Source: Bugula neritina
Lineage: Eukaryota > Bryozoa > Gymnolaemata > Cheilostomatida > Bugulidae
Reading direction: 5' to 3'
DNA: 64,000 nt
NCBI GenBank assembly: GCA_964035545.1
Contig: OZ037765.1
Span: 13,076,698 to 13,140,697 of the forward strand
Shown piece by piece: positions 1,743 through 54,729 of the stretch (the stretch's first letter is position 1; every line of letters starts with the position of its first letter). Made by a program: the position numbers and the translations under genes. Under the pieces are notes generated by a model. That model was not told where the DNA came from and made no database searches. It saw only the letters and a list, made by a program, of their open reading frames with translations.

Positions 1743-4035
1743 TGGTAGTATAACATGCTGATAGTCCTTTTATTATGGTCGATGCCAGATTTTGTTTACT
1801 AATATATTCATGGCCAGTTCAAAGAGCTAAATATAATTTTAAGGTTATTACATAATACGTTTATTACAATGTCAGCTATGGCTATAAAACTTTTTCTATC
1901 CAATAAAAGTATTTTTTTGCAGTCAGGTTTATACTGTAAGTTTGAATGGCAATGCTGCTATTTATTCACTGTTGATATATTTTTTATTATATGAATTACA
2001 AAGTTTTTTTAGATCACTATTAGAAAAGGATTATTTCAAGAGCTCTTTATGCAATGTAAGCCATTCCATTAGATTTTGGTAATTCGAAGGCAGATTATAC
2101 GCAGATTGTCATATTGAATATATGCATTTTTTAATTTCTATGGCTATATTGTTGACAAATCATCATTTATCAAAAATTATATATATGTATGTATGTATGT
2201 ATATTATATGTACATACATATAATATTATATATATATTCTATTATATTTTATATATATATATATATACTGTATATCTATTTCTTTTTCTATAGCTTTGAT
2301 TGTTAAATATTTATCCCTTTGATTTAGTTAGACTACATTGTATCTATAAACAAATATTTTGGAATAAATTTTTCTTCTAAGTAAGTAATTTGGGCATTTT
2401 ATCATATTTACAAGTTCTACTTTTTAGATAAAATTACTTGAGTATTTCGAAAACATCATTTTAGCAAGAGCTAACTAGATTTTATTTGATAAAATAGTTT
2501 CTAAAATACAGTATAATCTACTGAAGGACTTGCATGTTGCAGAGTTTGACTTCAAGATGATGCTAGTTCCCATTATTTTCTTGTTTGCACCAGTTCCTTA
2601 ATATGTATGTAGAAATGTTTCTCCCCAAGTCAACAATTAGCTAGCTAGCATTGTAGATGTTGAGATATAATACAGATTATTATTGTTGTACCAGAGAACA
2701 TAAGTTGCCATTTACGACCACATTTCCACTGAGGTCTTTTACATTGTTTATAGTTTTGATTTGCTGGTTATATGCAACTCACTCACCCGTGTGACTTTAT
2801 AATTGTTATTTGTGCGAGAACCCTCGATAAAAGGTTTTTTTAGGTGGCCAAAGAGTTTTTCACTGTTGTGGCATAGGAGCTATTATGGCTGGAAGCCCTT
2901 CCTAACCTCACCAATAGCCAATCACTAAGAATTGCAGCTAAGCCACTATGGTATAATCATAGTTAGCTATATGTAAGGTAGTTATAATATTACATGTAGA
3001 TTGTATAAGTTTAAAATAATGAAAAACTTTTTTTTGATATGAACATATCAAAAAAATACATTGTATAAAAGAGCAGTAGTGGGTCTTAATGCCAAGTTGT
3101 CACAGATGATTATTGTTGATTTTATTTAACGCTCAAAAGTTCACAATATTGGTTCAAACATTCGTAAAATATTATATATGTTACACTGATAGCGTGGTAG
3201 CTTGTTGTTTGTTTCTTTAAACATTAAGGATTGACTGTTGATGTGATAGGAAGGAATTGTCTATTTTGTTTTTACCAGCAGGTCTTGAGATAGTCCATTT
3301 GCTAATAGAACCCAGAACCACATCCCACTGCATGTAAAACTTGTTGATGAGTTTTAAAACTTTCTTAACTAAAAAGCTGGCAACAAGAAGAGAAACCCTA
3401 AACCAAGCTTCCCACCATTGAATATTATTACATTATAGTCTATACAGATCTTGAATATATTGTTTGTACTTGCATGTTGCATATACTTATTTTAGTACAA
3501 CTTGAAGTGTATATAATGAGTTAATAAAACACTAAACCCATAAAAACAAATTCACCCATAACTGATGTTGAGGTTTTTATGCAATGTTATAAACTAGCTA
3601 GCTTTCAAAGTTTTCAGCATAAAGTATATAGCTTAAAACAGCTGTGAGCCTGTGATCAAATGATTTATAGAGATTATGCTACTACCAAAGCACCAGACAA
3701 ATTGGAGTTAATCAGTTGTTGAAGTTATATTTAATAAATTTGAAGCACCAAAATACATGCTGGTAATCAACAATAAATTATTTTATATTATCACTTTAGA
3801 AAAAAAGTTTACTATATATATAATATAATATAATATAATATAATATAATACCAATGTTCAAAAATAGTCTAAACAATTATATAGTTACATAATTAATATA
3901 TCAGGTCAAATAAATAACAATTAATTTGTCTTGTGAAATTGAAAGCTAATTCAAGTACAGTACAATCTAAAATATCATAATATATCGATTTATATGTGGC
4001 CATTGGCTTTTTTACTATATATAAGATGTGTTTAT
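1743..4035. other. Intergenic, AT-rich, with simple repeats
   Basis: Apart from the 3' UTR of the first gene I see no coding sequence here. There is a TA/TATG microsatellite at about 2178-2272 and a TAATA pentamer run at about 3818-3850. The two flanking genes point toward each other, so this is a tail-to-tail spacer. Confidence 0.5.
1902..1907 (+). terminator. Poly(A) signal AATAAA of the first gene
   Basis: AATAAA lies 160 bases after the stop codon at 1742, followed by a T-rich stretch, as expected for cleavage and polyadenylation of the upstream gene. Confidence 0.5.
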
Positions 4036-5037
4036 TTAGTCAGATTTACATGTGTTGCATATAAATACATTCAAGATTCTCCTCCTAATACTTGGTGATC
4101 TCTTTTCTTTTACTGCGGTGCTAACTTTATCTGTAAACATAAGAGAAATTGATGAATTTATTTATATTAGTTAGATAAGTTCAACAAGATAAAATTCAAT
4201 ATACTTTTTATGTAGGGTAGAAAGTTTTAGACTATAGTATGATCATTTAGCTGCTAAAGGATGGGTCATTTGATTTTAGCTTATAATATATACAGATGAA
4301 TATTTTACTTACAATAAACACTCCTGCAGTCACTCATGTCTCCATCAAACTGGAATCTACTGCCTATCAAATCTTTATTTGTCAATATCCCAGTTTCATT
4401 GTACTCAATAAGTTTGTCTGGTAGCTTTTCACCTCTTTGAGGCAGATTTATAGATACATCACTAATGCTTCTAACAGGAAGCATGAACTTTTCTTCTGCT
4501 TGAGGTGCTATCGGAGTTTGACAAAGATGGAGTTGGTTGTCAGCAACAGTTTTGACATCGGTATTCATCACCGGCTTGTTACTTTCAGTTTGATCTTTTG
4601 TGTCATCATCAACGGTTGTTACTATTGAGCTTGGTTTGATGAACATATTTTTCACTTCATACTTTATCGACCGTTGTATGAAATTGCGGTGAATTTTCCT
4701 ATATATAAGACTGAGCTCATAGTCATAGGCTTCAGTAAAAGCTACTAACTTTGGACTAGCTCCCATATTGTGATTCCTTGGAGGCTTATTTTGACCTCTT
4801 TGTCGTGTACTGCAAAAATATATATTTCAAAATCACTATGCTTATTTACAAGAACTTTTTTCAAATCTTGCAATTTTCAGAGCATAAATTAGTAATTACT
4901 AATACTGAATTAGTATACCAAATCATGAAAAAATTGCTAACTTACCTAAAAGTAGCATTACGGTAGTACATAGCCATTACAAACAAAACCCAGAACACTT
5001 GACCAAAAAGTGCTTCTCTGGGGAGCAAAACTTCCAT
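4036..5037 (-). CDS. Small three-exon gene, putative single-pass membrane protein, family unknown
   Basis: Exons on the minus strand: 5037-4946 (ATG, donor GTAAGT), 4809-4313 (acceptor TTTTGCAG, donor GTAAGT) and 4130-4036 (acceptor TTTACAG, stop TAA). Phases fit (2 then 1) and give 227 residues. Residues about 11-25 (from FGQVFWVLF) form a short hydrophobic segment near the N-terminus, a possible membrane anchor or signal anchor. A basic patch follows, then a Tyr-rich amphipathic stretch (YDYELSLIYRKIHRNF), a Ser/Thr/Asp-rich disordered middle, and a Cys-containing C-terminus. I do not recognise the family. Exon 2 alone has an internal ATG and reads to a stop four bases into the intron, but splicing gives a longer consistent product. 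AATAAA overlaps the stop codon on the minus strand (4036-4031). Confidence 0.6.
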
Positions 5038-7377: not shown

Positions 7378-10300
7378 TAAATATCATTTACAATTATGAA
7401 TTATAATTACATTTACTTTTAGTTTTACTGTCCTGATTAATTCAGAATGAGAATCAGAAAGTGTAAATGTTGAATGTAGTTGTACTTGTAATTGTATCAC
7501 TATAACTATAAGTCTGTAAGTATTAGTATTGCTATTACTATTATACTATTATATATACTATATTACTATATATACTAGTATACTGTTATATTGTTGTAAA
7601 ATTTAGTATAACTAAATCATAAGTATAAGTACAAGACCACTAGTACTAGTGCTAGTAGTTACAGATTTAATTAGTATTATTATATAATTTTTATTATACG
7701 TTATAATTCATATTTGTTGACCATTGAAGTCTGAATGTTATTGTAATACTAATTCATGTTTATCATCACCACCATAATTATTTTGACGATTGTGGAAGTA
7801 GTATATTGAAGTTGCAAGTGAAAACTACGCCTATTAGTATTAGTATTACTTCAAGTTCATCTAATGATATTATAATTATAATTTTGTTGTTTTTATTAAT
7901 TGATTAATGTTGATTTATATTCAAATTGGTACTCACCAACAATGAAGATTGTGGTGAATGAATGATTGCTGTGGCTTATTCTTAAAGCTGAAAATCAGAA
8001 TGATGATGAAATGACTCCTCAGTTTAATGTCTGATACTGATAGTAATGGTAATAGGCTAATAGCCTAATACTCTTTTGGTTATGCCAGTGAGCAAACTAA
8101 AATTTATAATTACTATTACTTATAGTAATACTTATAACCTGTTAGTAATAACCCTGGCATTAGTAATTGCAAAAGTGAGTAGGGGTTAGCTTATGAATTA
8201 AGAACAAGTTAACTACATTTAATAGCTAGACTAAATAAGGGAGTTAATCACAATCATAATGATTAGAATAGATAATCATGCATCTACTGACTGTCATTAT
8301 TATGATTATTTCTCTTGTACTGACACTTGTAGTTGTACTGAATCCTCGGCCATGATATTTTTGAATTTGTAGTAAATTAATGCTCATAATTTATTTCAAC
8401 TTTTCAGTAACAAGGTAGTAATTACACCATATTGAGTGTCATGATCATCACGCTGTATAGTATAAATATGTGAGTAGTCAACAGTCTCAACGTTAACAAC
8501 CTGAAGCATGTTCATCACTTTGAATCTTAAAAACTTTAAAAACTATTACCACTCATATTGGCTCAATCTCACAGTTAATGATAGGTTAGTGGTACTCAGT
8601 TATTATGCAATTTAATTACAATGCTAGGTTTGAAACTAAAATGAACAAACAGAACGTAGGTTGAAGTGAAGTATACGAGTGAGATTAAGTAAGATGCCTA
8701 CATGAAGCTTGACAATATAGAAATATTAGGGAGTTGAATAATAAATAAATAATCCAAGAGCTGAATTTAAGTCACAACAAGTCAAGCTAATATCTAGCTA
8801 TGTTAAGTCACGGCTTATGCACAGGTTTAAGGCGACCAATAATTTAAGCCAACTCTGCCAATTTAATTCTCATTTGAAGTTATTATTTAAAATAAGCAAC
8901 TTTGTAATAATCATGAGCCTTTAAAATTATTTGTTGATCTGCTAGCAATTGATAAACAACGACAGGCGTTTAGCAGTCGAAATAGAATGAACAACTTGGT
9001 AGTTCTGGTTCTAGCTTTTTAAGATTGTTTTAATAATCAATAAATGCAAAAAATAGTTATTTGATAGGAAACCTCAATCTACTGCAACATCTATTAAATT
9101 TTCCTAATAATCTGAAATTATTGTTGAATGTTTAGTTTTTAGTAAAACAAAGCAAAATATAATTAGTTTGCTTATCTTCCTTAAAATTCTTGCTTTCAGT
9201 AAGTCAACTTCAATCAAGAGATTCTAGCAACTATGCCAGAAAGTCTTTTCAAACTCAAAATGTGAAAATTGCAGGTTGTGCACCTTCATCTTTTGCTATC
9301 TTATCTCAAGTAGATGAGTATTAATCAGTACCATAATCTATATTTGTCCAATTTTACTGACATATTTGGTATGCAACTATTTTTTTATTTTCTAAATTGT
9401 CACTACTAATTTTCTATCAATTTGTATTATTGTAAATTATCGCTTAGGCTATTGACGAATTGCAGCTTTTTAAAATACTGTATTTATAATGAAAATCTAG
9501 TAAAAATAATAGCTTATGCTTGGAAAAATAAAACTAATATTTTAAAACTAATTCTCTTCGCTGAGTCCACGGGATGTTATCATCGCTGTAGAAGATGATG
9601 GTTTTGTTAAATCAGCGCAGATTGCTAAAAATGCATGTTTTTTGACAAGGAAATGTAAGATTTTGTAAGATATCCCATGTTTTGCATTCTTTGTCTAACG
9701 GTGCTACAACAGAAAAGTTGGTATAATAATGTGCCAAATATTCTACTGATGTTACTGCAAAAACATTTTATCGTGTTTGGATATGTTGCAGAAATAGCAA
9801 ACGATTTTAAAAGCAGATTTTCAGCATGGCATATTTGTAAAAGTTTCAGGATTTTACTGGTAGTTAGCTAGCAAGGAATATGGCAGATATATTTATATAA
9901 TATGCCTCTTGCAGCTTTTATTCTCCTCAAACTGAAATACAATACTCTTAATAATGATTTAAAATGTATGATTAATAAAGTGTCTGGCTTCATTATGTTT
10001 TAGTCTTGAATATCCCCTATAAAATAAGATATAAAAGTAGCATAGTTGAGTTTAGGTAGTTTGCTAAGAGTAACCTTATACTTAATATCAAACAAAGCTA
10101 ATTACACACCTCACTATTGATTCTCTGCCAGTTAGAGGCATAATAATGGCCACTTATACTAGCTGCAATCAATGTTCTCAATTCGCACAGCTTACTAGTT
10201 TCACTGGTGGTTTCAATAGTAACTTGAAATAAGTTCCAAAATGTATGATTGATTGAATACCTGATTCGGTTTAGCTGTACGAAACCACATTGATAACTCT

Positions 10301-27580: not shown

Positions 27581-30500
27581 CTACATCTGTTTTGGTCTTT
27601 TAGTGGGTGGCTCTTCTGCGCCCTGTGATGGTAAATCATCTGAAATTGTGTGGTCAAAACCGGTACTGGAAGTTCGATGATTTTTAGGGTCAGGACGAGT
27701 AGACTTTTGAAGGTCAATAATAATACAAGTCATATTATCACAACCAGTGCCATCCCCGTCTACTGTGTCTTCAGCCAATACACTGTGAAACAACTGCAGA
27801 AAGCACAGAGAAAGGATAACTCCAAATTCACACTAAATGCACTCTGGATTATTAGCATACTAATACAGTATATACAGTAACAAAGATACAACACAGAGAT
27901 ACCAGAGACACCTATTATACATTGGAGAGGCGTTATGGAAGTGGAAAGGTCACAGTAAACAAATACTTTGCAACTAAAAACAATCTTAAAACGGTGCAAT
28001 GGTTCAATCCAGCTACTCTGTCCCTCTATCTAACCAAACACAAAACATTTAAATATTTACTCATAAATTCAAGTAATAAAAATACTCGTATTAAGTGAAC
28101 CAACTAACCGCCATTAGCAAATCATTCAAAAATGGAGAGAACCTATTTTATAAGCGATGTATATTAAAATATGAATTTTGTATTCCTATAATGAAACATC
28201 TTCCTTTTAAGCATAATTCAACATTTTGACATGCTGATTCCTGGCCAGTATAAAGTTAATTCAAAATTATTTTAGCTGCACTTACATCTTCACATATTTG
28301 AGATATTTTATCTCCTCTTTCCAATTTCTCCTTCACAAAATCCACACATTGTTGGCTGCTCAATGAGTTCCAAATACCATCACAAGCAACTATGATAAAA
28401 TCATCATTCGGCGTCAGTGTTTGTATCTGTACATCTGGTAGAGGGGTAATCATCTGCTCTTTCAATTCTAAAGCCCTGTTTCTTTTGTAGTTGTGGTCCC
28501 CTGCAAATAACTTGTCGCAATGAAAGCTGTTGAAGGCAACAAAACTCCTTTTGTTAATGTACTATGCATTCCAGTACTAGGAAAATGTAGCCAGATACAG
28601 ATACAGAAAACAGCTGGGCATCATAACCATATCCATTAAACTATCTAGCAGTCTAAAGAGATCAGAAGTGAATGTAATACAAAGTAATTTAATAATTAAT
28701 TTTCATTCAAAATAAATGAGCGAAAATGACTAAAACTACAAAATTGTAGCTTTGTAGCTTGACAACACATGAACAAAAAAAATTTAGAGTTGATCATATT
28801 TAAAAGGTTTCACAATATATAACAACGATAGTTTGTGAACTGATATTTTTTGTCTTTCATTAAACTTTTGCTTTAAATTTTCTGAGACATTACAAAGGAC
28901 ACCACGAGGTAATTAAGTGAAATTTAAGAAAAAAAAATAATTAGTTCATATAAGACTTTCAAATTATGAGACAACTAAATTTAAAAAACGTGTCAGAAAA
29001 TATGTATGTAACAAGAAAAAAAAATGTTACATTACGCCAACAGCTACAGTAAATATGCTAGTGGTTGTATTACCACTTACCAATTGCTCTGGAGAGATTT
29101 AAATTTCCGTTGACTCGGCCATCAAGTGTAACAAACCCACCGGCTTTGTCTATTCGTTCTTTTTCTACGGCATCTTCAGGCTTATGGTCTACTGACATAT
29201 CTATAGCCTTACCACTTCTAGAGAGAACACACCTGGAGTCCCCGGCATTGGCCACATACAGCTTATTGTCTCGTATCAAAGCCAGGCAAGCTGTACACCC
29301 ACTATCAGAGCCAGGAAGCTAAAACAGAGTCTAATTCCTGAGCTAATGGCCACAATTAGCTAAGATGTTGAGTGTGATACCAAAAATATACTTAATTAAT
29401 TTAAGCGGTGCATATATGGACATAAACTGTATAAACGTGAGATCCTAGTTTTCATAAGCAAAACTTGAATAAACATAATTAGCCAATGCAAAATTTGTGT
29501 TTCTCACAAAAAATTATTAGCATTGCAATCAACGGTTTAATTAATATAGATCTTGTAGTTTAAATTACTTATTGTTAGGTTTGAATTAAATGACAATATA
29601 GACTTAAATTCAAACTTTATTTGGCTTGCAGCACTTTTTGAAATCTGGACCAGTCTGAAAAGTGGAAACACCATAACTTATATCCAATATTTTATCTATT
29701 GCAATAAAAAGAATTTAAATTGTTACTCTTATTTTTCAACTTTTTGATTTAATTTTTACCTAAATTCTGAATTTAAGTTGGACTATTTATTATGTATTGT
29801 CTAGTCACTGCAACTAGCTACACAGAAACCGTTTTATTTCTTAAATAAATTATTTAATGGAATTTATAATATCACACATATTACAGGGTGTTGAAAAGTT
29901 TACATAGTCATTTAATATATTATTCATCGATCAAAGACAAATGAAGCTGTAACTGGGCTGCTAAGTTGTAAGAAAATAAATAAGCAAATTTCAATTATAT
30001 ATAATTTAGTTGAGCCTTACAGTCATGCCACTTAACGCTGAACCACATTAGACCAAATCTTGATTAAATTTGTAGTTTGTTATTTTCCAGTTTAACTCTA
30101 ACTAACTATTGGCGTAGTGTTAGTGCAGCTGTACACAGATCATACTGCCATATCTAACTGATGATTACATCATGTTGATAGACTACAAAACACACCTCCA
30201 CATATTCGTCTGACTGAGTGAATTTGATAGCCATCTCCTGGCTGACCTTCACCTCTTCCAGATCTTCTTCCTCTCCGTCCTCTTCACTGTCTTTATATAC
30301 AACAATAGTTTATGGGTACAGTGTATCTACTACAGGACACTACACACTACAGGTACAGTATATCTACTACAGTACACTACACACTACAGGTACAGTATAT
30401 CTACTACAGCACACTACACACCTAGGTACAGTGTATCTACTACAGTACACTACACACCTAGGTACAGTATATCTACTACAGCACACTACACACCTAGGTA

Positions 30501-33500
30501 CAGTGTATCTACTACAGTACACTACACACCTAGGTACAGTGTATCTACTACAGTACACTACACACCTAGGTACAGTGTATCTACTACAGGACACTACACA
30601 CCTAGGTACAGTATATCTACTACAGCACACATACACACTACAGGTACAGTATATCTACTACAGCACACATACACAGTACAGGTACAGTATATCTACTACA
30701 GGACACATACACAGCACATTACACACTACAGGTACAGCACAGGTACAGTACACTCACCACTATCTGGTTCTTCATTGTATTCCTCTTCACTACTTTCTGA
30801 AGAATCAGATCTAAAAACCAAACAAAGTGATACATCTTACAACACTAAGGATGGTTGAACAGCAGCTGGACTGGAGTAGTGTGCACAATGCAGTGTACTA
30901 TCTGTGTGTACTTCGAGCAAGTGAATTTACTCAGTCAAATTGTCTTCCCTTTCCAGACTTCATCTAACATGTTCATCAGGCACAGTTACACCTCCTACAC
31001 GCAGCTAGAATTAGACCAGTAATCCCAACATAAATTAATGCAGTCCAGTAACCTGCAGCAAACATCTCACTACAAGTTTAGTGCTAATAGAGAATGTAAT
31101 GGCGGCTCCCGGCTCACTGAAACAAGCTGTGGACATCAAACATACTAAACACTCTGACATAGACTAATCAGACTTACGATGTATCCATCTTGAGGGAAGA
31201 GATGCCACCACTACCGGCAGTTGCTGCCTGTGAACCACTAGAGCCGGCTGCCGCAGAGCTCGAACTCCCAGCCTGTTCTGACGAGTCGGCAGCAGCTTCC
31301 TCTGTCTTGCTGGAACTGGTTTCTAGAAAAACCCCAACCAATATTACAGGCGAGCCACACTTTACAGAGATAGTGCAGATATTAGACAATTTTTCCAACT
31401 TTGTGCAAGCACCATTACTGTGTGTATAGTGTGTACCAGTATTAGAAGGGGCCTTAACCGCTCCATTGGTCAGTTTGTGCAGAACTTCTTCAATGGGTGT
31501 AGACGCGTCTTCCAACAAATTAGCTGTCTCATCTTCGTCTAAACACATTGGTAATGTTCTATATAGAATAGGCTTACAGACACAATATATTACATGCACC
31601 AACAAGAAAACTAACTGCTTGAGTATTCAACACTGTTTCTCATCATATGCAAGCACACACTTAATTTCATGAATACAATAGAAAATAATCTGGTAACCTC
31701 CTTCATACTGTTGAAACATAACTACAAACATTGGAGGAGAACTTTTTAAAGCAATTTTCTCACAATTTCTCACTTGAAAGACCGTAATACAAATATATAA
31801 CTCAGCTACAGCTGCATGATGAAACTGTCACCCATAAGAGTCATCCCAAGTTTTATTAAAATACTGTTTATCATACATATATATATATTGAAAATAAGCT
31901 ATTCATATTGTCAATTGTCTATTACTCCAATTAAGATAAGGTTATATCTGAGTGGCATATGTTTTTTTCACTTAGTAGTACATATAGCTAATGTTCCAAG
32001 TGCTTAAACTACTTGAGTGAAAAACCTGTGTATTGCAACAGCTAAGAATAATGTGTAATAAAAACTAACATTAATCAGCATTACTTATTTAATACAAGTT
32101 AGCTTGAAATTGCAAGTCATCACAGGTCAATAAATTAATTGACGACATCAGCTTACAATATACTTGATCAAATCAATTTGCTTGGGAATACAACTCTCCA
32201 GTAATGCTGCAATTATGATGATATATATTACTACATATTTTTTAGAAATCTAGAATTTCTAAAAAGGTAAAAGAGAAGTTTTAATAGTATAAGACAGCCT
32301 CGATTAGCCTCAGAAATAGTATGGAGTGCCAACCACCTGTGCTTCCCATATAGTTCATATACTCATGGAGGTAACGATTGTCAGCTACTGATGGATAGCA
32401 ATGTACAAATAAAAATCAAATCCTAATACTAATGTTATTACTAATACTAATACTAATGTTAATACTAATACTGATATCCCAGTCACTAACCGCAGTCGAT
32501 AGGAGCACTGTCATCAAACTCATCATCTTCTCCATTGTCATCACCGACAGCCTGTGTCTTGGCTAACTTGAGTACATTCGGAGGAACTGGAGACTCGGGT
32601 CTGTTGGCCAACTCTTTTAGTTGCTGCACAGTTTCATCTGATGTCAAATGCCTGTCAAACTCAATGAAACCTTTGATGAGTGCCTCTTCTATGCTATTCT
32701 TTTTATATTCATCTAACTAAAAAAAGTCATCACCAACCAATGCTAAGCTACGAAAGAAACACAAAAGTGTAAATATACTTCAACAAGAACTGAGGGGAGT
32801 TAAAAAGATGAAAAACAAGATATAGCTAAAAATGTAAGCCCCTTAAGTATGATCTAATGTACAGAGAATATAACTGTTACTATACCTGCTTTATAAAATC
32901 AGGAAAATGCTTAGAACAATACTCTGCCACCTCTGATCCTGCATATAACAAAGCTTGTTTCAACAAACATGCATATATGTATGTATATCAATATAATATA
33001 ATATAAAATCTACCCCAACACTTAAACTACGCAATCATACAATACCTATATTTTAAGCAGAATAAAAATTATATATCTAATGTAACATGAAAATCTATCA
33101 ATTTCTTTTGACAATAAAACTAAAAGAACTTTATGCTTTGATAAAATACTATTACTTTACAAATTTGTCTTAAATTAATTAATTAACAATGCTAATAATG
33201 AGACCCACAGAAAAGTGAGACTGGATAGTAATAAAACAGCTGAAAGAAAGCCAAAATTGTTAATATATACATTGAACAGTTAGATGAATAAAAACAAAAT
33301 TTTGATATTGCAGCAGATGACTAGTTTGTTGGGTTATTAGCTATAAAAAGCAGAATTTTTAAAACAATTTCTAACCAATTTACAGTAGAAAATATAGATC
33401 AGAAACAGGAAATACTACCTCCATGTCCATCATACACTGCATAGAGCATGCTCTCAGTCTCGGTATCAAAGTCTGGACAACAGTTTAAAGCATCCTGAAA

Positions 33501-40639: not shown

Positions 40640-42227
40640 CCCGACCAAACAGTATATCTTGGATACAGACGCTAGCGACCACAGTATGGGGGCTGTGTTG
40701 TCCCAGGTACAAGGAGGTACCGAGGTAGTGGTGGCGTACTACAGCAAGGCCCTCTCCTCCGCCGAAAGAAACTACTGCACGACCAGGAAGGAACTCCTAG
40801 CAGTAGTTAAGGCGGTGAAGCATTTCCGGCCATATCTATATGGTAGAACGTTCAGATTACGAACTGACCATGCATCACTGATATGGCTGTGCAAACGGGC
40901 CGAACCCTCCAGCCAGGTCGCCAGGTGGCTCGAAATACTTGCAGAATTCTCATATCGGATTGAACATCGCGCCGGCCGGAAGCATGGAAATGCTGATGGT
41001 CTGAGCCGTCGTCCAGAGAGAGACTGCAAGCAATGCCTCCATATAGAGAAGCGGGACGGGGGACCCGCCCGCTCGGAAGTCGAGACACAACTGAAGGAAG
41101 CAGAAGCCTACAGGTGGGAACAAGGCCGACTGCAATCCGATGTCCATTCAGATGCTGTCCAGGCCCTTCGGGTCAACCCCACCTTAGCCAGAAATGTCCA
41201 GGACTTGTGCCGATTACAGGAAACCCTGCCGGGGGTAGTGGGAGAGATATTCAGGGCCAAGAAGGAGGGGCGCCGGCCAGGTGAGGAGGAGCAGCGGCAG
41301 AAGGGCGTTGAATTCCAACAGTTCTGCCACCGCTGGGACTCCCTCAAATTCAACTCAGACGGATTGCTAACCATCTCCTTGGCAGCAGACAGGCAACACC
41401 AGGAACGGGAGCGGGTTGTGTGCCCACACCCCCTCCGGAGAGAGCTCATCTGGGAGACTCACAAGCAAGCCCATGCGGGGACCAGTAGAGTGATTCGGTG
41501 CCTACAGATGCGGTGGTACTGGCCAGGGATGACAAGGGATGTGAGGCTACAGATCCGGCAATGTGAAATCTGCCAGGCGAGTAAGCATGGCCGTTCTACC
41601 GAGACCACGGGACGGCGCAGGCTGTACGCCGGTCGCCCGTGGCAGACAGTGGCAGTCGACTTGGTGGGTCCCATGCCGACGTCCGCTCGTGGAAACAACT
41701 GGATTCTGGTACTAACGGATCATTTTACTAGGTGGGCAGATGCCTTGGCAATCCCGGACGCCTCCGCCCCGACGGTAGCCCGAGCTTTAGATCAGCACGT
41801 TTTCTGCTATTTCGGGCTACCGGAGCAGATCCACACAGATCAAGGGGCACAGTTCCAATCACAGCTGATGAGGGACCTCTGTCGGGTATGGGGGGTCAAC
41901 CAAAGTAGGACCACCCCCTACCACCCCCAAGGAAATGGCGTAGTGGAACGCAACAACAGGATGTTGGGGGACGCCCTGAGGAGTCTACTACTAGGGAAAA
42001 GCCAAGAAGAATGGGACGCCGTGCTACCCCAGATCATGCGTGCATATCGCAGTACTCCCCACTCTAGCACCCAGGAGACACCCAATTTCCTAATGCTAGG
42101 CCGGGAAACGCGGGTCCCGGATCATCTCACGTACCACGTCCCCCTCCCAGAGGGACCTGTCCACGAATACGTGAGAGAGCTGGTTGATAGGATGCGGACG
42201 GCCCATGAGGTCTTAAAGAATTCCTGA
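40640..42227 (+). pseudogene. pol: Gypsy pol, second part: RNase H and integrase, cut by the nested transposon
   Basis: Continues the pol protein in a shifted frame. RNase H starts at LDTDASDHSMGAVLSQ (from 40659). The integrase zinc-binding domain has HKQAH and CEICQ (about 41460-41575). The catalytic D, D and E are in VAVDLVG (about 41656), HTDQGAQF (about 41833) and VVERNNRML (about 41945). From 42217 the reading frame is that of the inserted DNA transposon and meets TGA at once. The pol sequence resumes in frame at 47041. Confidence 0.93.
42213..42216. other. Left TTAA target-site duplication of the nested transposon
   Basis: TTAA here and at 47037-47040. Removing the element together with one TTAA joins the Gypsy integrase reading frame without a gap or shift, which confirms the duplication. 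Confidence 0.93.
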
Positions 42228-42370
42228 CACACTTTACTTATATAGCATGAAAATATTCATCTATGTCTTAGCTATCATTTTAACACTCTTTTAGGGTTTC
42301 AGGTCTAAACAATTTTGTTTTATAACAGTTTTAGTGCATGCATGTCCAAAAAACTTCGAGAATTTTTTTC
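42217..42370. repeat. Left terminal inverted repeat of the TTAA element
   Basis: Outer 61 bp nearly identical to the complement of the right end, followed by a diverged stretch and the shared word TTAGTGCATGCATGTCC. Confidence 0.9.
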
Positions 42371-42674
42371 GCCCTTCTGTGACGTATTACACCGCAGTTG
42401 CGAGAAATAGATGGAAACGCCGCCTGTAAGACATTCGGAAAATAAGTATAGGCTATATTTTCCGTTGCATGTAACCTTAGTTTTAGCATTTTTAATTTAT
42501 CGGACGTCTGTCTAGCCCCCCAATTAGTATTTTTTTGTGGAATTTAGGTTTTATTTCATAAACAAATTTCGCGGCAATAAATACATAGCTACCAACTTAC
42601 CGTGTCCGAGTCTGTGCAGTGTAATTGTGATAAAGATAAACCTAATACAGAAATAACATAAATACGATATCAAT

Positions 42675-44407
42675 ATGAACATATCTGGCTCTGACGAAGA
42701 ATACTTAGAGCACAGTGAGAATCGCAATGAGTATGACTATGACAATCACACTCACGCTGTCACTGAGATTTCTGAAGTAATGGGCTATCAGTTTGAGCCG
42801 TTTACCTTTACGTATCAAGATGAAAATGGAGATGATAGTCATGACAAGGATTTTACTGTTACTGATGAGCAACAGATGATAATATTTATAATTTTACAGT
42901 ATCAGTACGATTTAATTTTATAAACTATAGTGTTACTAATACCGTAATACTAATAGTAATAGTAATACTAATAGTAATAGTAATACTTTAACTTTAAGTT
43001 ATAAGTATAAGCTAGTATAAGTTATAAATTATTATAATTATAATATTTCATTTTCATTTTGTAATCGTAATTCCAATGCTCAATGCCAATGCTCGTATTG
43101 ATCCTGGCTTAATTAGTTAATATAGCTGAGTTTTGTGCTACTAAAGCTTTAGAGCAAGCATGATATCAAATTACAAGCTAAATATTTGATGATTGCTATC
43201 GGTTTATATAATATTATTAATAATAAAGTGATAATCATTAAATTTAATGATTACAAATTCCAGTCAAGTAATTAAATATTTGATCAATACTAATTTTGTT
43301 ATTACTACTACCAATACAGGTATTAGTATTAATTATTTGTAGTTAGATTTACCTGATAATTTAAGTCAAGGGAAAGACTGTATTTTTATAAATGCATAAT
43401 AATGATAATTATTATTCACTTTTATTGTAATTGTGGTTATACCGATCCTTAACAAAATAAGTTAATCACATACATAATCATGTCAAACTTGCATTCACGA
43501 TGATAGCATTTAGTATTTTATTTTTAAGCCCCCTATTTCTCTGAATTTCTGCTTTTATAGTATAACATATAGTACTAACAACAATAAAATATTTTAAAAT
43601 TTCTGAAAATTAGTTTATTTCATAGCAAAAATTATGAGTTTGTTTTAATATAAAAAATCTAATTAATTTTCAACTATAAATATAAAAATAGTTTGAACAG
43701 TAATGCAAACTTGGAATATTTTAAAACCCATGATTTTAAAGTATTTTCAAACTTCAGCCTCATTGGACTCAATTTTCAATACAAAGAAAAATACAGGAAA
43801 CAAATTTAGACACAGTAATTAATGGACTTAATGTGGATGATACTGGTAATAACGTTTTTAGAAAAGCTTGTTTGTTTTGTAGAAAAATATAAGGCCAGCC
43901 ACGGAGTGGTGCACTTGCCACCGCTGCCAAAATCAGCCTACAGTGGAACAGTCTGTTTGTTGCCGTGATCATGCTGCAAACCTTCGATTAGATAGCAGCA
44001 TGGAATGTATAACACAGCACCCGGGAGTACAGCAATTGACGCAACCAGCTGTATTAGAAGTTGCATACAGCAGCTACCTGAGATATCATGGTTAGTCAAT
44101 TCCTACTGTAGATCAGTAACTGTCATTGTTAGTTTTTCTAGATAGTCTTACTTGATTATTTAGCCAATCATTTATTTTGGTAGATGATTTGTTTGATGAG
44201 AAGGCCCATTCTCTCAACACTAAAAAAAGGTTCTGCAGCTACCGGTTTTTGGTGTTCTGGCTGTTTCCAGATATTAAAAAAGGTGAGAGACGCCCTTTAC
44301 CAGCTTGCTTATATGATTGGGTGCAAGCTACATTCCCCCCAACTGGTGATGAGGAAGAATTTGCTGAATGGATGTTCAGCAAATTCGTGTACAATGAAGA
44401 TTTATGA
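42675..44407 (+). CDS. P2X7-receptor-type cytoplasmic (ballast) domain protein in the TTAA element
   Basis: Three exons proposed. Exon 1 (from ATG 42675, to about 42870) is acidic and contains GYQFEPFTF, like the YxFEP segment that precedes this domain in animal proteins. Exon 2 (43883-44090) gives RPATEWCTCHRCQNQPT, a CC pair, CITQHPGVQQL and VLEVAYSSYLRYHG. Exon 3 (44184-44407) gives YRFLVFWLFPDIKKGERRPL and ends at TGA. The Cys spacing and the order WCxCxxC...PT...CC...CITxHPG...AYxxY match the cysteine-rich zinc- and guanine-nucleotide-binding C-terminal domain of vertebrate P2X7 (known structure). There is no channel domain. The exon 2/3 junction is in phase; the exon 1 donor is uncertain (a weak GTTACT fits the phase). 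Role in the element unknown. Confidence 0.75.
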
Positions 44408-44545
44408 ACATTAACACTCTGGTGATTTTTAGTAGCAGTCAGTTGCTACTGCCTCTTGTAGTGTGTACAGCTTACTATGAGAATAAACCTCATTATTAAA
44501 GTTACTGTTATGAATGTGTATTAGTAAATAAAAACCTTGCTAACA

Positions 44546-44665
44546 ATTTAATTTAGCCATGTATCAATGCTTGGAAGCTGCACACCATGATTGTTCTAGA
44601 CTTGACCTAGCCATGGTAGGTCAGGTGCTGCAGCCACTTTGTAGAAGCTATGTAGAGCAATCAGG
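44546..44665 (+). other. Possible extra exon in the TTAA element
   Basis: After a TTTAG acceptor there is an open stretch starting MYQCLEAAHHDCSRLDL and ending at G|GTATTG. It looks coding in composition but has no recognised family, and it lies beyond the stop and AATAAA (about 44482) of the P2X7-like gene. Could be an exon of another product or chance. Confidence 0.25.
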
Positions 44666-45055
44666 TATTGCAATATTCCTAGTACACTAGAATATGTTAT
44701 GCAATGTAATATAATATAATATAACAATATTGTTTTTATGAAACTTTGTGACATAGTATAACTTTTACAAATTTTTACCAATATATTGTTTTATTTATTG
44801 CTATTTATTGTTTTCACATTGCTATTTATGGCTCTAATAAAGTACCAACAAAACCAAACATACAGCTGCTCTACAGTGAAAACGAATATCTACATTTCAA
44901 TGGAAACTAAGACTACAAGTAGATATATTGTCCAAATTTATTTTTGACACACCTTGAGGTGGAAAATTAAAAATATTATTTCCATTACACAAAAATATTT
45001 GGTTTTTTGTTGCATTAGAACATGCATTTTAAATAAAAATAAATATGGAGAAAAG

Positions 45056-46294
45056 CTATGAATTCAGTTTTTGAGCTAAGTGAACAATACTATTTCGCCA
45101 TATTTCTATATACCAGCATTGAACAGCTTTGCTTCTAATCTTTTTCTGCATCCTTTTAGGTGTTTGCACATATTTGTTGTGTCCTATTTCTTTCTGTAGG
45201 CCCTTCTTTTCTGGCTTACGATGGAGAGCTGGTTTTTTTGTTTGACTTGGCAAAGCTCTAAAATATTATTATATATGAAGGTAACTGGAAAAGTATTATT
45301 GAAACAGCTGCAGAAAATCTCAATTGCTGTCTATATCATATTTCAATTTTATTGCTCAAGATCGCATTTTCAATATTATAATCTTTACAGAAAACCAGGG
45401 TCTGTTCTTTTTAACCAGCGAGCTTCTTTAGGTGTGATAGTGGCCGCCTGCTGACTTTGTTTCCGAGGAGTTAATGGAGTGCATCCAGTTGCACCCTCAG
45501 TTTCCACTAAATGAATAGTTGGGACTGCTGTTTTCTCTAAATGCAATCTAAAGAGTAAATCAAAGACAATGAATTTTTATTCTTTCAATAAGTGAACAAT
45601 ATTTACCATTAATTTTTACTGGTATTGATGATGGGCACCATTACCAGTATCATACTCATAGCATGAGTATCAGTGCGTATGAATCATAATATTAATGGTA
45701 TGTATCCAAGTGACTATGACACATTCTGATAATCATAAGTCTTTCATATTATCGCCATTATAAATGAATTTCCTTACAATAACGGTTATCGTGTAAATCA
45801 TAAATGCAAACTTGTACTTGCAAGTTTATGTCATAGTCACATGAAATTGAATCAACACGGTCATGACAATCCTATTGACTTATACCAACTTGTAGTAATA
45901 CTTGATAGTTATAGTTATACTTATTGTTGAAAATCAACATTAAAAAAACTATCATTAGCCTATCGTCTAATTATATCACAATCACTAAGTCATTAGTCAG
46001 TATCACTATGACTATGAGTTTGAGTGAGTTATTCACTTACATGTTAATGAGTTTTGCTTTATACATGCCCATGTTTGTAAATTGTTCATCACCAAAATGC
46101 TGAAAACACAAACGAGAGTTGTTATCAGGCAGAAAGTTTTTTCTTTTCGTATTGACAAACTTGGTCCATTTTTCACCACACGCAGTATCAGCAGGCCATT
46201 TAAACATGTGTTTTTCCTTGTACGAACACATTGCAGCTTCACACACTCTTCTTTTGCATTTGCCTTTAGAACTTGAAGCCATTCGTGTAGTCAT
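45056..46294 (-). CDS. THAP zinc-finger protein in the TTAA element
   Basis: Minus-strand exons: 46294-46041, 45547-45396, 45255-45056; phases fit and give 201 residues. Exon 1 encodes a THAP-type C2CH finger: CEAAMC, then W at KWTKFV, and CFQHF for the CxxH pair. Exon 2 begins with the AVPT signature (LEKTAVPTIHL) that closes the THAP fold, which confirms the splice. Exon 3 is strongly basic (KKPALHRKPEKKG, KRMQKKIRSK). THAP domains are sequence-specific DNA-binding modules of P-element, Kolobok and domesticated proteins. Here no catalytic domain follows, so it may bind the terminal repeats as an accessory factor or repressor (inference). An alternative start is Met5. Confidence 0.8.
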
Positions 46295-46879
46295 GTCGAC
46301 AGTAAGTGTAACTAGTAATATAGGTAATAAGTTTGTTCATTAGAGTCCAATGGCAATATGAATATGAAATCTAATTTATATAGATAGCGAGCGACTACTA
46401 CTAGTAGTAGTACTACTAGGCACAGGTTATATTGGTAATATCCGGTTACGGTAATGATAATCTATTTGGAAGCGTAATAAGTTACATAATTGAATATGCA
46501 ATTATTTGTAATGTTTTATAGAAAAGTTTACCACTCGTTGGATTTAGCTAATTTCTTTCAACAATATCGTGTTATCGCCGTACTTAGCCACCCGTTCTAA
46601 TTACATCGTGAGGGTGAGGCTATTTCATTTTTCCGATGCTCAAAATTTCTAACGGAAGTAACTTTAGCTCTTAATATCAATAATAAAATGGTATTATTTG
46701 TTTTTTTCATTGAGCCTTAGTTGTACTCTGTGTTTTAAAATTTATGTCAGTTTAGTGATTTATCTGTGTGTTGCAGTGGCTAAAAATAAAACGCTGTGAA
46801 AGTATGCAATTATTACTATTAGTTATATAGTAACTAGGACTCGAAGCAGACCGGAAACCGGCGTAATACGTGTGCACTG

Positions 46880-47036
46880 AGAGCTTAGAAATCCGAAAGT
46901 TTTCTGGACATGCATGCACTAATCTTGTTATAAAACAAAATAGTCTAGCCATCCACCCTTAAAGGGGTGGTCTAGTGATAGCTAAGATATAGATGAATAT
47001 TTTCGTGCTATATAAGTAAAGTGTGTCAGGGATTCT
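46880..47036. repeat. Right terminal inverted repeat of the TTAA element
   Basis: Complement of the left end; the outer 61 bp differ at three positions, all transitions. Ends GTGTCAGGGATTCT, then TTAA (47037-47040). Confidence 0.9.
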
Positions 47037-47040
47037 TTAA

Positions 47041-49193
47041 GGGAAAAACAATGGCAAGTGCGAGGGGAAGACTCGGACGAGCCCCCACTCTACCAGGCTG
47101 GCGATTGGGTATGGATGATTAGTTACAGGAGGAAGCGCGGACAGTCGGCTAAATTACAGCCCAAGTTCGTGGGACCATACTGCATCATCGAAGTGCTACC
47201 CAATCACACGTACCGCGTAGAACGCTCCGGACAGATTTCCGTCCAAAGCGAGAAACGCTTAAAACCGTACTGGGCCAGCCCTGGGGCAGTAGGACAAGCA
47301 CCACCACTCCTGGAGCCAGCACGACGACCCACCGGGGGAGGAAGGGCGCCCCCCACCCGAGAGTGGGAACTTCCCTATAACATACCGGAGAGAAACCCCG
47401 AAGCACAAGAACCACCCCCCACTGTGCAAGAGCCCCCCGAGCAAGCAGCACCTCAGGCGCCCCCACCAGTAAGACCACCCCCCGCCATACCAGAGAGGTT
47501 AGACCCACCTACCCTGGAAGTAGGAGAGAGTAGAGCCACCAACCCTGGGGGACAGGCCACTTTGCCAGACACAGAAGGCCTAAGGCGTAGCCAGAGGACT
47601 CGAAGACCTCCTGGGTACTTAGGGGAATATTACTGTGGCCAGATAGGGAAAGGATACCCTAGCTCGGAGGACGAAGGGCCCCCCTTGTATTACAACTATT
47701 CACCACCCAACCATACCACCAGGGAGGCTCGATATCGGCAGGGGATCACTTCGATGTTCCTCACCCAGATCGGACAAAAACCCGATCCCGAAGTTGGAAA
47801 AACCCAGGCGAGGGACTCTCGCGATAAACCACTAACGCATACTTCGTTCATTCCAATCGCAGCAAGCACACACGCCACACGGAATTTAATCTCTCGCCAT
47901 CTAACAAATATGGATATTACACCCACTCACCTGAATGTTGAAGAAGAGTCTAGCGCACACCCTGGTAAGTCCACTAGACTAGAATTACCTCCTATACCGG
48001 AGAATTGTCTAGGCGGTGATGACCGTAGGAACTCGAACTCTGATTCCCAGAGTAAGTTCGAGATGTGGAGAACTCACACTTGGAACTCTAGAGGGTCAGA
48101 CTCAGAGTCACCCAACAGAGATTATCTACTTGACCAGGACATCCAGAGTATCACTCTACCCCCACCTCGGCAGCTCGCAGTATCGCGACGAGTGCCATAT
48201 AAGGATATCACTAATAATAGAGTGAGTCAGCCATCACGAGTTGGAGATATCGGTCAGACTCGACCAGCTCAACTCTCTATTTCTGTTGTAGACACCGACA
48301 AAGTCGTAGAGCCTGCCTCTACGACTCTCACCTCATTCGGAAGATCCTCCGAAATCGCGACACCCCAGGAACAAGTAATGGAGGGAGATACAGAGACCCC
48401 TGCCACTGTCGTCGATATTGGACTAGATGAAGGGGAGGAACAGTCTATCCTGACCTCATCTGAAACTACAGACCCCCCTCCAGAACTAGGAGGAGCTGGA
48501 GAGCTAGGATTACCACGCGTTTTCAGCACCCGGTCTCACTGGACCAGCACCAAGACGCGGATCCTGATAGCTGAGGCCTGCGGGGAGCCTAGTAACACCA
48601 AGTGCCCCACCTGTGGGCGGAGCTTTACCTCACACAGGCGACTACGGATACACATCCAACAACATTACGTTAACTCATTCTGTCCGTGTGGGGAGTTTAG
48701 CTTTCAGCGTGACTACGTGCTCAAGCACCAACGTATCGGCCGCTGCCACACGGGCAGAATTTTTGATGTAGATGCGGACAATTACCTAGAATTCAGGGAC
48801 CTGATTCTCCCCCACATCAGCGATCCCAAGAAGAGGGAGCTGTTGTCCCAAGGGTTCCCGGCCTGTCGACCCACTAGGCAGACGCAACCGCCAGAAGACC
48901 CCCCAAGTTGTGAGTTGCCACCCACCCAGCCTCTCCGGGTAGTGGTAACTCGAGCCGAAGCCACTACAGAAGGAGACCGCTGGACGCCACGAGAAACGGC
49001 CCGAACTAGAAGAGAACGGCGTAGACAGGGCGCACCGAGGCCGCGTAGTACCACTCCCTATACTACTAGGCACACACACCGTGGGCCACCGGAGAGTCTG
49101 GAGGATGTATATCGTGGCCTGGACAGGATCTCTGAGGAACTAGGACGCATACGACGCAGACTGCAGGACCTGGAGCAGCCCGCTCGACCCTAA
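47041..49193 (+). CDS. pol: Gypsy pol, third part: integrase C-terminus plus long zinc-finger extension
   Basis: Resumes the integrase frame right after the second TTAA. First comes the GPY/F-type C-terminal module (GDWVWM, KFVGPYCIIEVLPNHTYRV, RLKPYW). A Pro-rich, probably disordered linker of several hundred residues follows, including RRSQRTRRPPGYLGEYY. At about 48599-48665 there is a C2H2 finger, CPTCGRSFTSHRRLRIHIQQH (C-x2-C-x12-H-x3-H), and at about 48680-48750 a second Cys/His cluster, CPCGEFSFQ...KHQRIGRCH. The last 30 residues (LDRISEELGRIRRRLQDLE) look coiled-coil. No signal peptide or membrane segment, so this is not an envelope gene. The extension may help RNA/DNA binding or target choice (inference). 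Confidence 0.9.
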
Positions 49194-51831: not shown

Positions 51832-52908
51832 CTAATTGTCTCTTTGCTTTGCAACTTTAGTGTTAATGTGAGCATCAAACTTACAGTCAGATTTGAGCAG
51901 AACTCCTAGATATTTTGCGTAATTAACATGCTCCAAGACTGAACCGCTTAGTGTGTAGTTTGGTAGATTTTGCGTTGGGTTGATAGCCATAATCTTACTT
52001 TTGGAGATATTGAAAGACATGCCCCACTTGTTGGCCCATATTCCTAACTTGTCGAGATTATGTTGAAATCTTTTGGCATCAAATGCAGAATTGACTGGCT
52101 GATACAAAAGAGTATCATCGGCGAAGAGTCCAACAGAACAATTAAGGGAATTTGGCAAATCATTGATGAAGATCAGGAATAGGATTGGTCCAAGCACGGA
52201 TCCTTGTGGAACTCCTGATGTTACCGACAGTGGTTCTGAGATGTGACCCTGAAGGACAACGCATTGAGATCTGTTCGTCAAGAAGTCTGATATCCAGCTG
52301 AGAAGATAATTGTCAATATTGCCAATTGCCGCCAGTTTCTGCATCAGTAGCACATGGGGTACTCGATCAAACGCTTTTGTAAAGTCTAGAATTGCAGCAT
52401 GGACACTTTGACGGGTGTCAATAGTTTGGAGTATGTCCTGCATTGTAGCGCATAATTGTGTTTCACACGACAGATCTTTTCTGAAGCCATGTTGACGGTT
52501 GTGTAATAGTTTATCAACTTTTTCGAGCAGAAATTTCAAAACAAGATGCTCTAGCATTTTACAGGGTATACTGGTTAGCGATATAGGGCGGTAGTTATGA
52601 ACACACTCCTTTGGTCCAGATTTGTGAAGAGGAGAGACATTGGCTGTCTTCCAGCTAATTGGGAGGTTTCCAGATTGCAGTGACACATTGAAGATGCGAC
52701 TGAGGCATTCAGCAGTTTGCTCTGGAACAATATTCAAATGTGCTCTGCAGATTCCATCAGGACCGGGAGCTTTACCAGGTTTGAGCGTTTTTATGAGGCT
52801 CAGAACGCCCGCAGGGGTGATGGCTGGGACCTCGGGAAAACTTTGAGATTTTTTTGCAGTAAGCTGAATATCACAACTAAATTGTTGGTGAAAATAGTTA
52901 TTGAGCAA
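51832..52908 (-). pseudogene. LINE reverse transcriptase domain
   Basis: 358 codons with the standard LINE RT blocks: KPGKAPGPDGI, NYRPISLTSIPCK, HGFRKDLSCETQL, LDFTKAFDRVPH, SGVPQGSVLGPILFL and the catalytic FADDTLLY. The frame breaks after FDAHINTKVAK. Confidence 0.94.
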
Positions 52909-52945
52909 GTTGGCACAAATTTTGGGGTCTGTTACATGTTTCCCT

Positions 52946-54142
52946 TCAGGTGCGACGAGTGTGATTTTGGTTTTGAGATTGGGTGAGTCCTTTTAAGTGT
53001 CTGTAGAAGGGTTTATTGTTTCCTTCTTTCAATGGCTGACACACTTGTTTTACAATGTATGACCTCTTAGTCTCACGGTAAGTTTTCTTGGCAAGTCTTT
53101 TATGAGAGGCCGCTGCATTCTTGTCAAAAGAATCTTTACTATGTAGATAGCGATTATAAAGTTTCCGCTGTTTTTGTGCAACTTTGCGACATTCCTTGTT
53201 AAACCAGATGGGCTCATTCAGATACTGTTTGATTCGGCAGTTTACAACTGGTACGTGGTCGCTAACAGCTTGTTGCAGATTCCGTGAGAAGTGAGTCCAC
53301 ATGTCATTGACCTCATCCATATTTGAGAGATCTTGTCCGATTCCTTCCAATACATCTTGAAACTGCTCGATGTCTGCTTTGTGGAATTGTTTTAGAGATC
53401 TATAAGTAATCGCATCTTTCACTGCGTGAGCTAAATGCATGTTTACAGTAACAATTGCATGGTCGCTAAGCCCTGGGAAGAGAACTCTATGTTCTAGATT
53501 ATCCGGTTTACTAGCACAGATGAGGTCCAGCGTATTCCCATGGATGTGTGTAGGTTCAGTCACAAGCTGATGCATGTGCATCTCTAATAAGATGTTAAGG
53601 AACTCCTGGTGAAGCTTCTTACATTGTGCGTAAGGTTTGATAGTGTTTAAATGCCAATCTATACCAGGTAGATTCATATCTCCTACCAAAATGAGGTGAT
53701 GGGTTGGGAATTTCTGACTTATTGTAATTATGGAATTTTTCAAAGTGGATAGGTCTCTAACTGTTGGGGGACGGTAGTAACATCCAATGATATACTCTTT
53801 TATTCGAACAAATACAAGTTCTGTATCATCTGGATTTTCAAAACCTACAGTGTGACTATTGAGCTTGTGGTCCACAGCGATGAGAACCCCACCACCATGA
53901 GAATTTCTGTCATGTCTATATATTGCCTTATTATTATAATCAAAAACCTGACTATTTGGAAAAGACGAGTCTATATGTGTTTCGGTAAGACAAACTAAAT
54001 CAAAATCACAGGTTATAGCAGAAAACTCTTCAGTTTTTCCCTTTAGGGATCTTGTGTTCGCAAGGAATAAGCTTATTTTGTCACTTGATGTCTGTTCTGT
54101 GCGGTAGGGTTCGTGTACTTCCATTCCCCCTGAAGCTGACAC
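52946..54142 (-). pseudogene. LINE apurinic-type endonuclease domain
   Basis: About 398 codons. Motifs of the exonuclease/endonuclease/phosphatase fold: LFLANTRSL (N), CLTETHIDSS (E), HGGGVLIAV, LVGDMNLPGIDW (DxN) and LSDHAIVTV (SDH). The enzyme would nick target DNA for target-primed reverse transcription. The frame is lost at the junction to reverse transcriptase. Confidence 0.92.
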
Positions 54143-54648
54143 TGGATCTTGTTATTTCGTATGCGGTAGTCAGAATCCGGGTTGTTTCTCTTCATCTCTC
54201 TGACAGTTTCTCGTAATTTAAATTGCTGGTCTCTGGTCTCCTTACTTTCATCTAGTTTACAAAATATGTTTTCGTGTCGAAGTGATGCATTTACCCTTTT
54301 CAGGAATTCCCATTTAGTCATTTCATCAGCAGATTCCAATTTAATGGGCCGAGAAGTTCCAGAAGTTTTGGTGTTGAGTCGGAAGGATCGAAGAGGAGCT
54401 TTTGTTCTTTGGAAGCAATCTTTCTTCATCAATTCCGTGATCAGGTCATGGGCGTGTTTGCCTTCTTCCTCTGAAATACCATACAGAATGGCGTTGTTCT
54501 TCCTTATTTCCGCCTGCGACAATTCAAGATTCTTTGCAAACAGCTCTTTAGCACTGTCATTGGCTTCCAAACTTTTCTTCATACTCTCTGCATTTTGCTT
54601 TACGGCCTCTGCATAGCTTTTTTCTAGTTTTTCTAGCCTGCCATCCAT
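54073..54648 (-). pseudogene. LINE ORF1 fragment
   Basis: 191 codons. A predicted coiled coil (LEKLEKSYAEAVKQNAES) is followed by an RRM-like region with NAILYGISEEEGKHAHDL and a basic C-terminal part, the usual build of LINE ORF1 RNA-binding proteins. It overlaps the endonuclease frame by about 70 bases, which may be the natural ORF1/ORF2 junction. Confidence 0.75.
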
Positions 54649-54729
54649 TTCAGCAGTTGTATTATTAATATTAGTATTTCAAGTTAGCAGTATTACCTAT
54701 TGACCACGTCTTCCATAGGTAATAAAATA

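Follow-up and report, generated by a model that had tools for sequence, protein, structure and literature searches.

Kolobok DNA transposons are described as making TTAA target duplications and as having 5'-RR and YY-3' ends (PMC9587614), and the transposases of the Xenopus Koloboks are reported to combine a THAP domain with an AVPTIF box (PMC6004289). One lineage, Kol0, is described as encoding a second protein, KolX, in addition to its DDD/E transposase (Kojima and Bao, PMC9587614); KolX resembles the cytoplasmic ballast of P2X7, and P2X7 is inferred there to have arisen by KolX capture. Internally deleted derivatives of DNA transposons have a described source in abortive gap repair via short direct repeats (PMC8700633). 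In the P system of Drosophila, the KP element is reported to have lost catalysis by internal deletion and to have kept its DNA-binding 5' end, and deleted copies are reported to outnumber full ones (PMC12393704, PMC8700633).

We compared these systems with an element at positions 42217-47036 of the window, the 64,000-nucleotide stretch of Bugula neritina DNA analyzed here. An earlier note had described this element as a TTAA-flanked transposon with a P2X7-type gene and a THAP gene, and its account of the ends agrees with our results: TTAA stands on either side, and end-to-end comparison recovered the outer terminal inverted repeats (TIRs) of 61 bp at 58/61 identity (coordinates in Table 1). 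The element is a genuine insertion into a Gypsy retrotransposon, since the interrupted Gypsy frame is open again once the flanks are joined (...AHEVLREKQWQVRGED...). TTAA flanks each of the 19 extracted copies of the family at either end, that of the window among them, and the termini AG...CT conform to the 5'-RR and YY-3' pattern of Kolobok. TTAA, RR...YY ends and a KolX with likeness to the P2X7 ballast are shared with Kol0, as represented by Kolobok-1_XT, and so would be the putative DDD/E transposase of two relatives described below, L014 and C6 (PMC9587614). This match to the published descriptions (PMC9587614, PMC6004289) places the element in a known kind, where the name Kol0 rests on features rather than on phylogeny; the window copy differs from Kol0 in having no catalytic exons. 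Taken together, the element is very probably a non-autonomous, internally deleted Kolobok of the Kol0 kind, whose convergent two-gene parent lost its catalytic exons in at least five deletions and whose deleted copies spread.

The P2X7-type gene lies on the forward strand. Its four predicted exons, when joined, matched P2RX7_C (PF20478) with 47.6 bits (cut-off 23.5), confirming the domain that had been proposed for it, whereas single window exons alone remained under the cut-off with 18.9 and 16.9 bits. A sequence search of the PDB gave a best E of 0.0022 against P2X7 chains, and the domain part of the predicted window protein holds eight Cys, where the ballast fold has seven conserved ones. 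Scanning for PF20478 across the genome was uninformative, as it returned 0 matches in the own genome and also in 0/14 control genomes. The gene is KolX, the second protein described for the Kol0 lineage (PMC9587614), and thus not the odd stand-alone P2X7 gene for which it had been taken. Its frame is open and the predicted splice phases fit, in line with the earlier reading, except that exon 1 ends at an AT donor in the window copy where 19/19 other copies have GT.

The gene on the reverse strand carries a THAP domain (PF05485), as had been claimed: in copy L014 the THAP exons, once joined, scored 32.7 bits over 87/87 positions (cut-off 23.9), and a single window exon reached 26.1 bits, above the cut-off. 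An AVPTIH box agrees with the AVPTIF-type box of Kolobok transposases (PMC6004289). The reported absence of a DDE core from the window copy also held in all six frames and in a Pfam search of seven ORFs, neither of which revealed a hidden transposase inside this copy; Pfam gave no piggyBac transposase match in the window pieces or in the L014 core. The reading as a non-autonomous TTAA element of Kolobok type is borne out. All exon models used here are predictions.

Searching the genome with the element termini, as had been suggested, revealed a multi-copy family. The left end (284 bp) gave at least 29 matches in the 216-Mb own genome, for at least 23 of which identity was no lower than 96%, and right ends accounted for at least 12 further rows of the same search; since 40/300 candidates were scored, the left-end count is a lower bound. 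A mid-element stretch from the THAP side was found at 23 places at 84% or more. For the comparisons below we used 20 copies, namely the 19 extracted copies (window included) plus L030 and C5long (L021+L029), minus the 1.15-kb L027. Places outside this set are C5:127200-131738, C1:34836506-34849095, C7:9003065, C3:27818230, C5:16406419, C5:7535169 and C2:7694461, together with the diverged C9:5870394, C2:17744700, C1:24413951 and C5:8607382.

One copy of 7419 bp, L014, whose ends agree with those of the family at about 96-98% or more, contains an extra 2.58 kb between KolX and the THAP gene, coding on the THAP (-) strand. In gene order, this segment holds an acidic exon, a CNVCGG exon, and then exons with TTDRH, DTWH and SELESFH, so that, with motifs read by eye, the second D, DTWH and E are present and the first-Asp region is absent. 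Pfam gave the catalytic part a weak Mutator-type similarity (20.5 bits, cut-off 26.5) and NCBIfam gave no match, so the assignment as a catalytic core rests on motifs and architecture. The first-Asp region is replaced by a 101-bp stretch that is inverted and 100% identical to the left flank of L014 itself, a fresh repair footprint as expected of abortive gap repair. L014 has a frameshifted KolX and an open short THAP frame, after which further exons follow. A genome search with the segment matched at two places, one being L014 itself and the other a decayed 84% fragment, and thus detected no other family copy with catalytic exons; no intact transposase of the window family was found in this assembly.

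Searching the own genome at the protein level detected related cores on C5, C6, C1 and C4. In the sister element on C6, of which 9.3 kb was read, KolX exons show 55% and 69% amino-acid identity, and synonymous sites are saturated between its KolX and that of the window. This KolX is convergent with a gene that holds THAP, an AVPSIRF exon, GDGRCDSPG, TTDRH, DTWH and SELEAFH, in which all three catalytic motifs can be read by eye; stops occur inside some of the matched stretches, some of them perhaps intronic, and the frames are putative. The earlier note had named an intact Kolobok or piggyBac transposase in other copies as grounds against its reading, and such grounds largely exist: L014 combines a Kolobok core, though one missing its first-Asp region, with the two genes, and the C6 relative has all three motifs. 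The ends of the C6 element were not found in a search for TIRs; mobilization of the window family by the C6 family was rejected as a candidate on these missing TIRs and for want of a convincing match to the window-family ends. Among other relatives, L034 (C5:7800461) is a decayed core fragment at 84%, L022 matches the left end over 376 bp only, within 9.8 kb, and L031 (C4, about 2.1 kb, 73-80%) has ends and interior pieces with no tested exon above chance. A mariner-like ORF, recognized by eye, lies upstream of a further sister Kolobok core, L041 (G000:C1:11884762-11887944).

These relatives bear on how the two coding units of the window should be understood. A two-component transposon, in which separate THAP and P2X7-domain proteins work without a DDE transposase, would account for a window copy that shows these two units only, and both predicted frames are sound, splice sites included, in 6/20 copies. 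We consider it very improbable, however, because the THAP exons of L014 run into DDE exons, the C6 element has a THAP-DDD/E gene, and broken versions of each unit are frequent among the copies. The THAP "gene" is instead what the window copy retains, at the 5' end, of a THAP-DDD/E transposase gene after deletion of the catalytic exons, and the separate small THAP gene of the earlier note is not supported.

It would be conceivable that the 2.58-kb segment is not the ancestral middle but foreign DNA that entered a two-gene element in L014, given that only one family copy contains it. The strand and the exon order of the segment, however, carry on from the THAP gene, and the sister element has the identical order. 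Moreover, the six distinct junctions of the short copies remove overlapping parts of it, and L019, L023 and L026 keep pieces; such an origin is thus extremely improbable. No TIRs or target duplication bounding the segment were seen at the aligned junctions.

We placed the deletion junctions by pairwise comparison with L014, relative to which 19/20 copies show deletions that fall into six junction types (Table 1). The main junctions have microhomology overlaps of 3-7 nt. Only type A contains the interval of another type (that of B or L023), so that at least five deletion events were independent, barring recombination between copies. Larger deletions take both genes wholly or partly in L027 (382/6673), L047 (1215/6510) and L049 (about 224/7245). 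The 12.3-kb C5 copy (L021+L029) resembled a longer autonomous form but belongs to type B and owes its length to a nested Gypsy. The 8.0-kb L047 is an old deletion, likewise with a Gypsy nested in it.

Table 1. Features of the window element (window positions), inverted flank copy of L014, and deletion junctions (last retained/next retained position, numbered on the L014 element).
Feature	Position	Strand	Remarks
Left target-site duplication TTAA	42213..42216	.	
Left terminal inverted repeat	42217..42356	+	vs right end: 61 bp 58/61, 140 bp 119/140
KolX predicted exon 1, with YQFEP stretch	42675..42875	+	donor AT here, GT in 19/19 other copies
KolX predicted exon 2	43797..43845	+	
KolX predicted exon 3, WC-C--C and CC stretch	43899..44090	+	acceptor is the least certain boundary
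KolX predicted exon 4, up to stop codon	44184..44407	+	
Deletion junction, 5-nt overlap	44493..44497	.	absent part: L014 element positions 2295-4876 (catalytic exons)
Transposase gene predicted exon 3, probably reads into a stop codon since the following exons are deleted	45056..45257	-	
Transposase gene predicted exon 2, AVPTIH box of THAP domain	45389..45547	-	
Transposase gene predicted exon 1, main part of THAP domain	46041..46294	-	
Right terminal inverted repeat	46897..47036	-	
Right target-site duplication TTAA	47037..47040	.	
101-bp inverted flank copy inside transposase gene of L014	L014:5172-5371 and 9198-9298		
Junction type A	2423/5270		7 copies
Junction type B	2474/5030		8 copies
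L019 junction	2265/4687		single copy; second deletion 4906/5171, 30-nt overlap
L023 junction	2614/5114		single copy
L026 junction	2167/4621		single copy; end of KolX clipped
Window junction	2294/4877		single copy

Types A and B occupy 7 and 8 sites, so these copies moved after their deletion, and copies already deleted have spread. Pairwise differences within group A (n=7) are 0.08-0.75% depending on the region, which indicates that this spread is recent; we did not use middle-region distances, which come out too high where junctions of different deletion types are misaligned, nor the KolX figures of L026, inflated by its clipped end. The parent would have carried KolX (P2X7-ballast type, +) and a THAP-DDD/E transposase (-) in convergent orientation with their 3' ends meeting mid-element. 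At least five separate deletions took the catalytic exons out of the middle, probably through interrupted gap repair following excision, and the deleted copies would have been mobilized in trans by transposase made elsewhere and acting on their TIRs, with the leftover genes mostly riding along. Internal deletions between short repeats, in copies still mobile in trans, are likewise described for abortive-gap-repair derivatives (PMC8700633), where the repeats are 5-8 bp compared to 3-7 nt here; unlike the derivatives described in that source, L014 has a filler of 101 bp copied from its flank.

The earlier note had also raised the possibility that intact genes are kept under selection. KolX is open with GT/AG sites, as judged on predicted exons, in 11/20 copies and has stops, frameshifts or a clipped end in 8/20, which brings the damaged copies to 9/20 when the AT donor of the window is counted. 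The short THAP frame (204-206 aa predicted) is open in 12/20 copies, L014 included, and broken in 8/20. Synonymous/nonsynonymous substitutions in KolX were 2/2 for A vs B, 4/1 for A vs L019 and 5/18 within B, and in the THAP part 3/4 for A vs B, 0/7 within A and 9/11 within B; these counts are small and mixed. With KolX damaged in 9/20 copies, the window copy among them, and the short THAP frame in 8/20, the data lend no support to the idea that selection has kept the cargo.

The placement of the deletions is nevertheless uneven, as all six main types spare every THAP-side exon, and KolX as well but for its end. Assuming a parent of 7.97 kb, in which 550 bp stand for the region that L014 lacks, and allowing 45-nt clipping, we calculated that a uniformly placed deletion would spare both genes with a chance of 0.10-0.18, giving a product of 1.3e-4 for five deletions and 1.3e-5 for six. 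On the same assumed parent, the deletion centers fall at 3669-4139, around the element center at 3985. Deletions centered mid-element are what two-ended repair would leave, and the genes converge there. Selection may have contributed to the pattern but need not be invoked for it.

The same observations bear on a regulatory reading modeled on KP. The P element belongs to another superfamily and makes 8-bp duplications. As in KP, internal deletion removed catalysis here and left the DNA-binding 5' end, and deleted copies outnumber full ones (PMC12393704, PMC8700633); the window family differs in also keeping a second gene, KolX, and a repressor role in it is only putative. Deleted P elements that retain the DNA-binding part are regarded as repressors, with preferential mobilization of deleted copies as the rival view (PMC12393704). 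By analogy, deleted copies might have spread or been kept because their short THAP protein binds the TIRs and blocks the transposase. All six main deletion types take out the catalytic exons while leaving the three exons on the THAP side in place, the short frame is open in 6/7 copies of group A as well as in the majority of the set given above, and the low product calculated for five deletions points the same way. Against this, the central position of the deletions is expected anyway from repair at both ends, the short frame is broken in the remaining 8/20 copies, the THAP substitutions of group A are all nonsynonymous, and larger deletions removing both genes wholly or partly exist (L027, L047, L049). 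On balance, self-regulation of this type appears unlikely. Equally doubtful is the broader proposal that Kolobok here repeatedly made KP-like regulatory derivatives (at least five deletions keeping the THAP end and KolX, one of them clipped) which displaced autonomous copies, with KolX possibly still supplied as a trans-acting cofactor.

If the element is, as we judge very probable, a deletion derivative of Kol0 kind, the apparent transposase-less transposon is explained as a two-gene Kolobok of a known kind that has lost its catalytic half by deletion. No Kol0 deletion derivatives retaining both genes appeared in the titles and abstract openings among the 15 of 1,101 matches listed, within an incomplete coverage of the literature. 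The young and well preserved set of derivatives, with readable junctions and flank-derived filler, could be used to study break repair in Kolobok, and equally to ask whether THAP-only remnants regulate their parent, cf. P/KP. The window element also adds one mobile KolX, a gene thought to be ancestral to the tail of the P2X7 receptor (PMC9587614).

Other repeats were noted in the window. The Gypsy hit by the insertion has, at 47016-49193, a long ORF behind the integrase that encodes a C2H2-type zinc finger and, after it, a second Cys-rich stretch; the Pfam score is weak (18 bits), and a comparable stretch occurs in the Gypsy nested within copy L021+L029. At 51832-54678 (-), ORFs resemble by eye a non-LTR retrotransposon (endonuclease, reverse transcriptase), and a tandem-repeat ORF at 30214-30858 (+) is probably a minisatellite.
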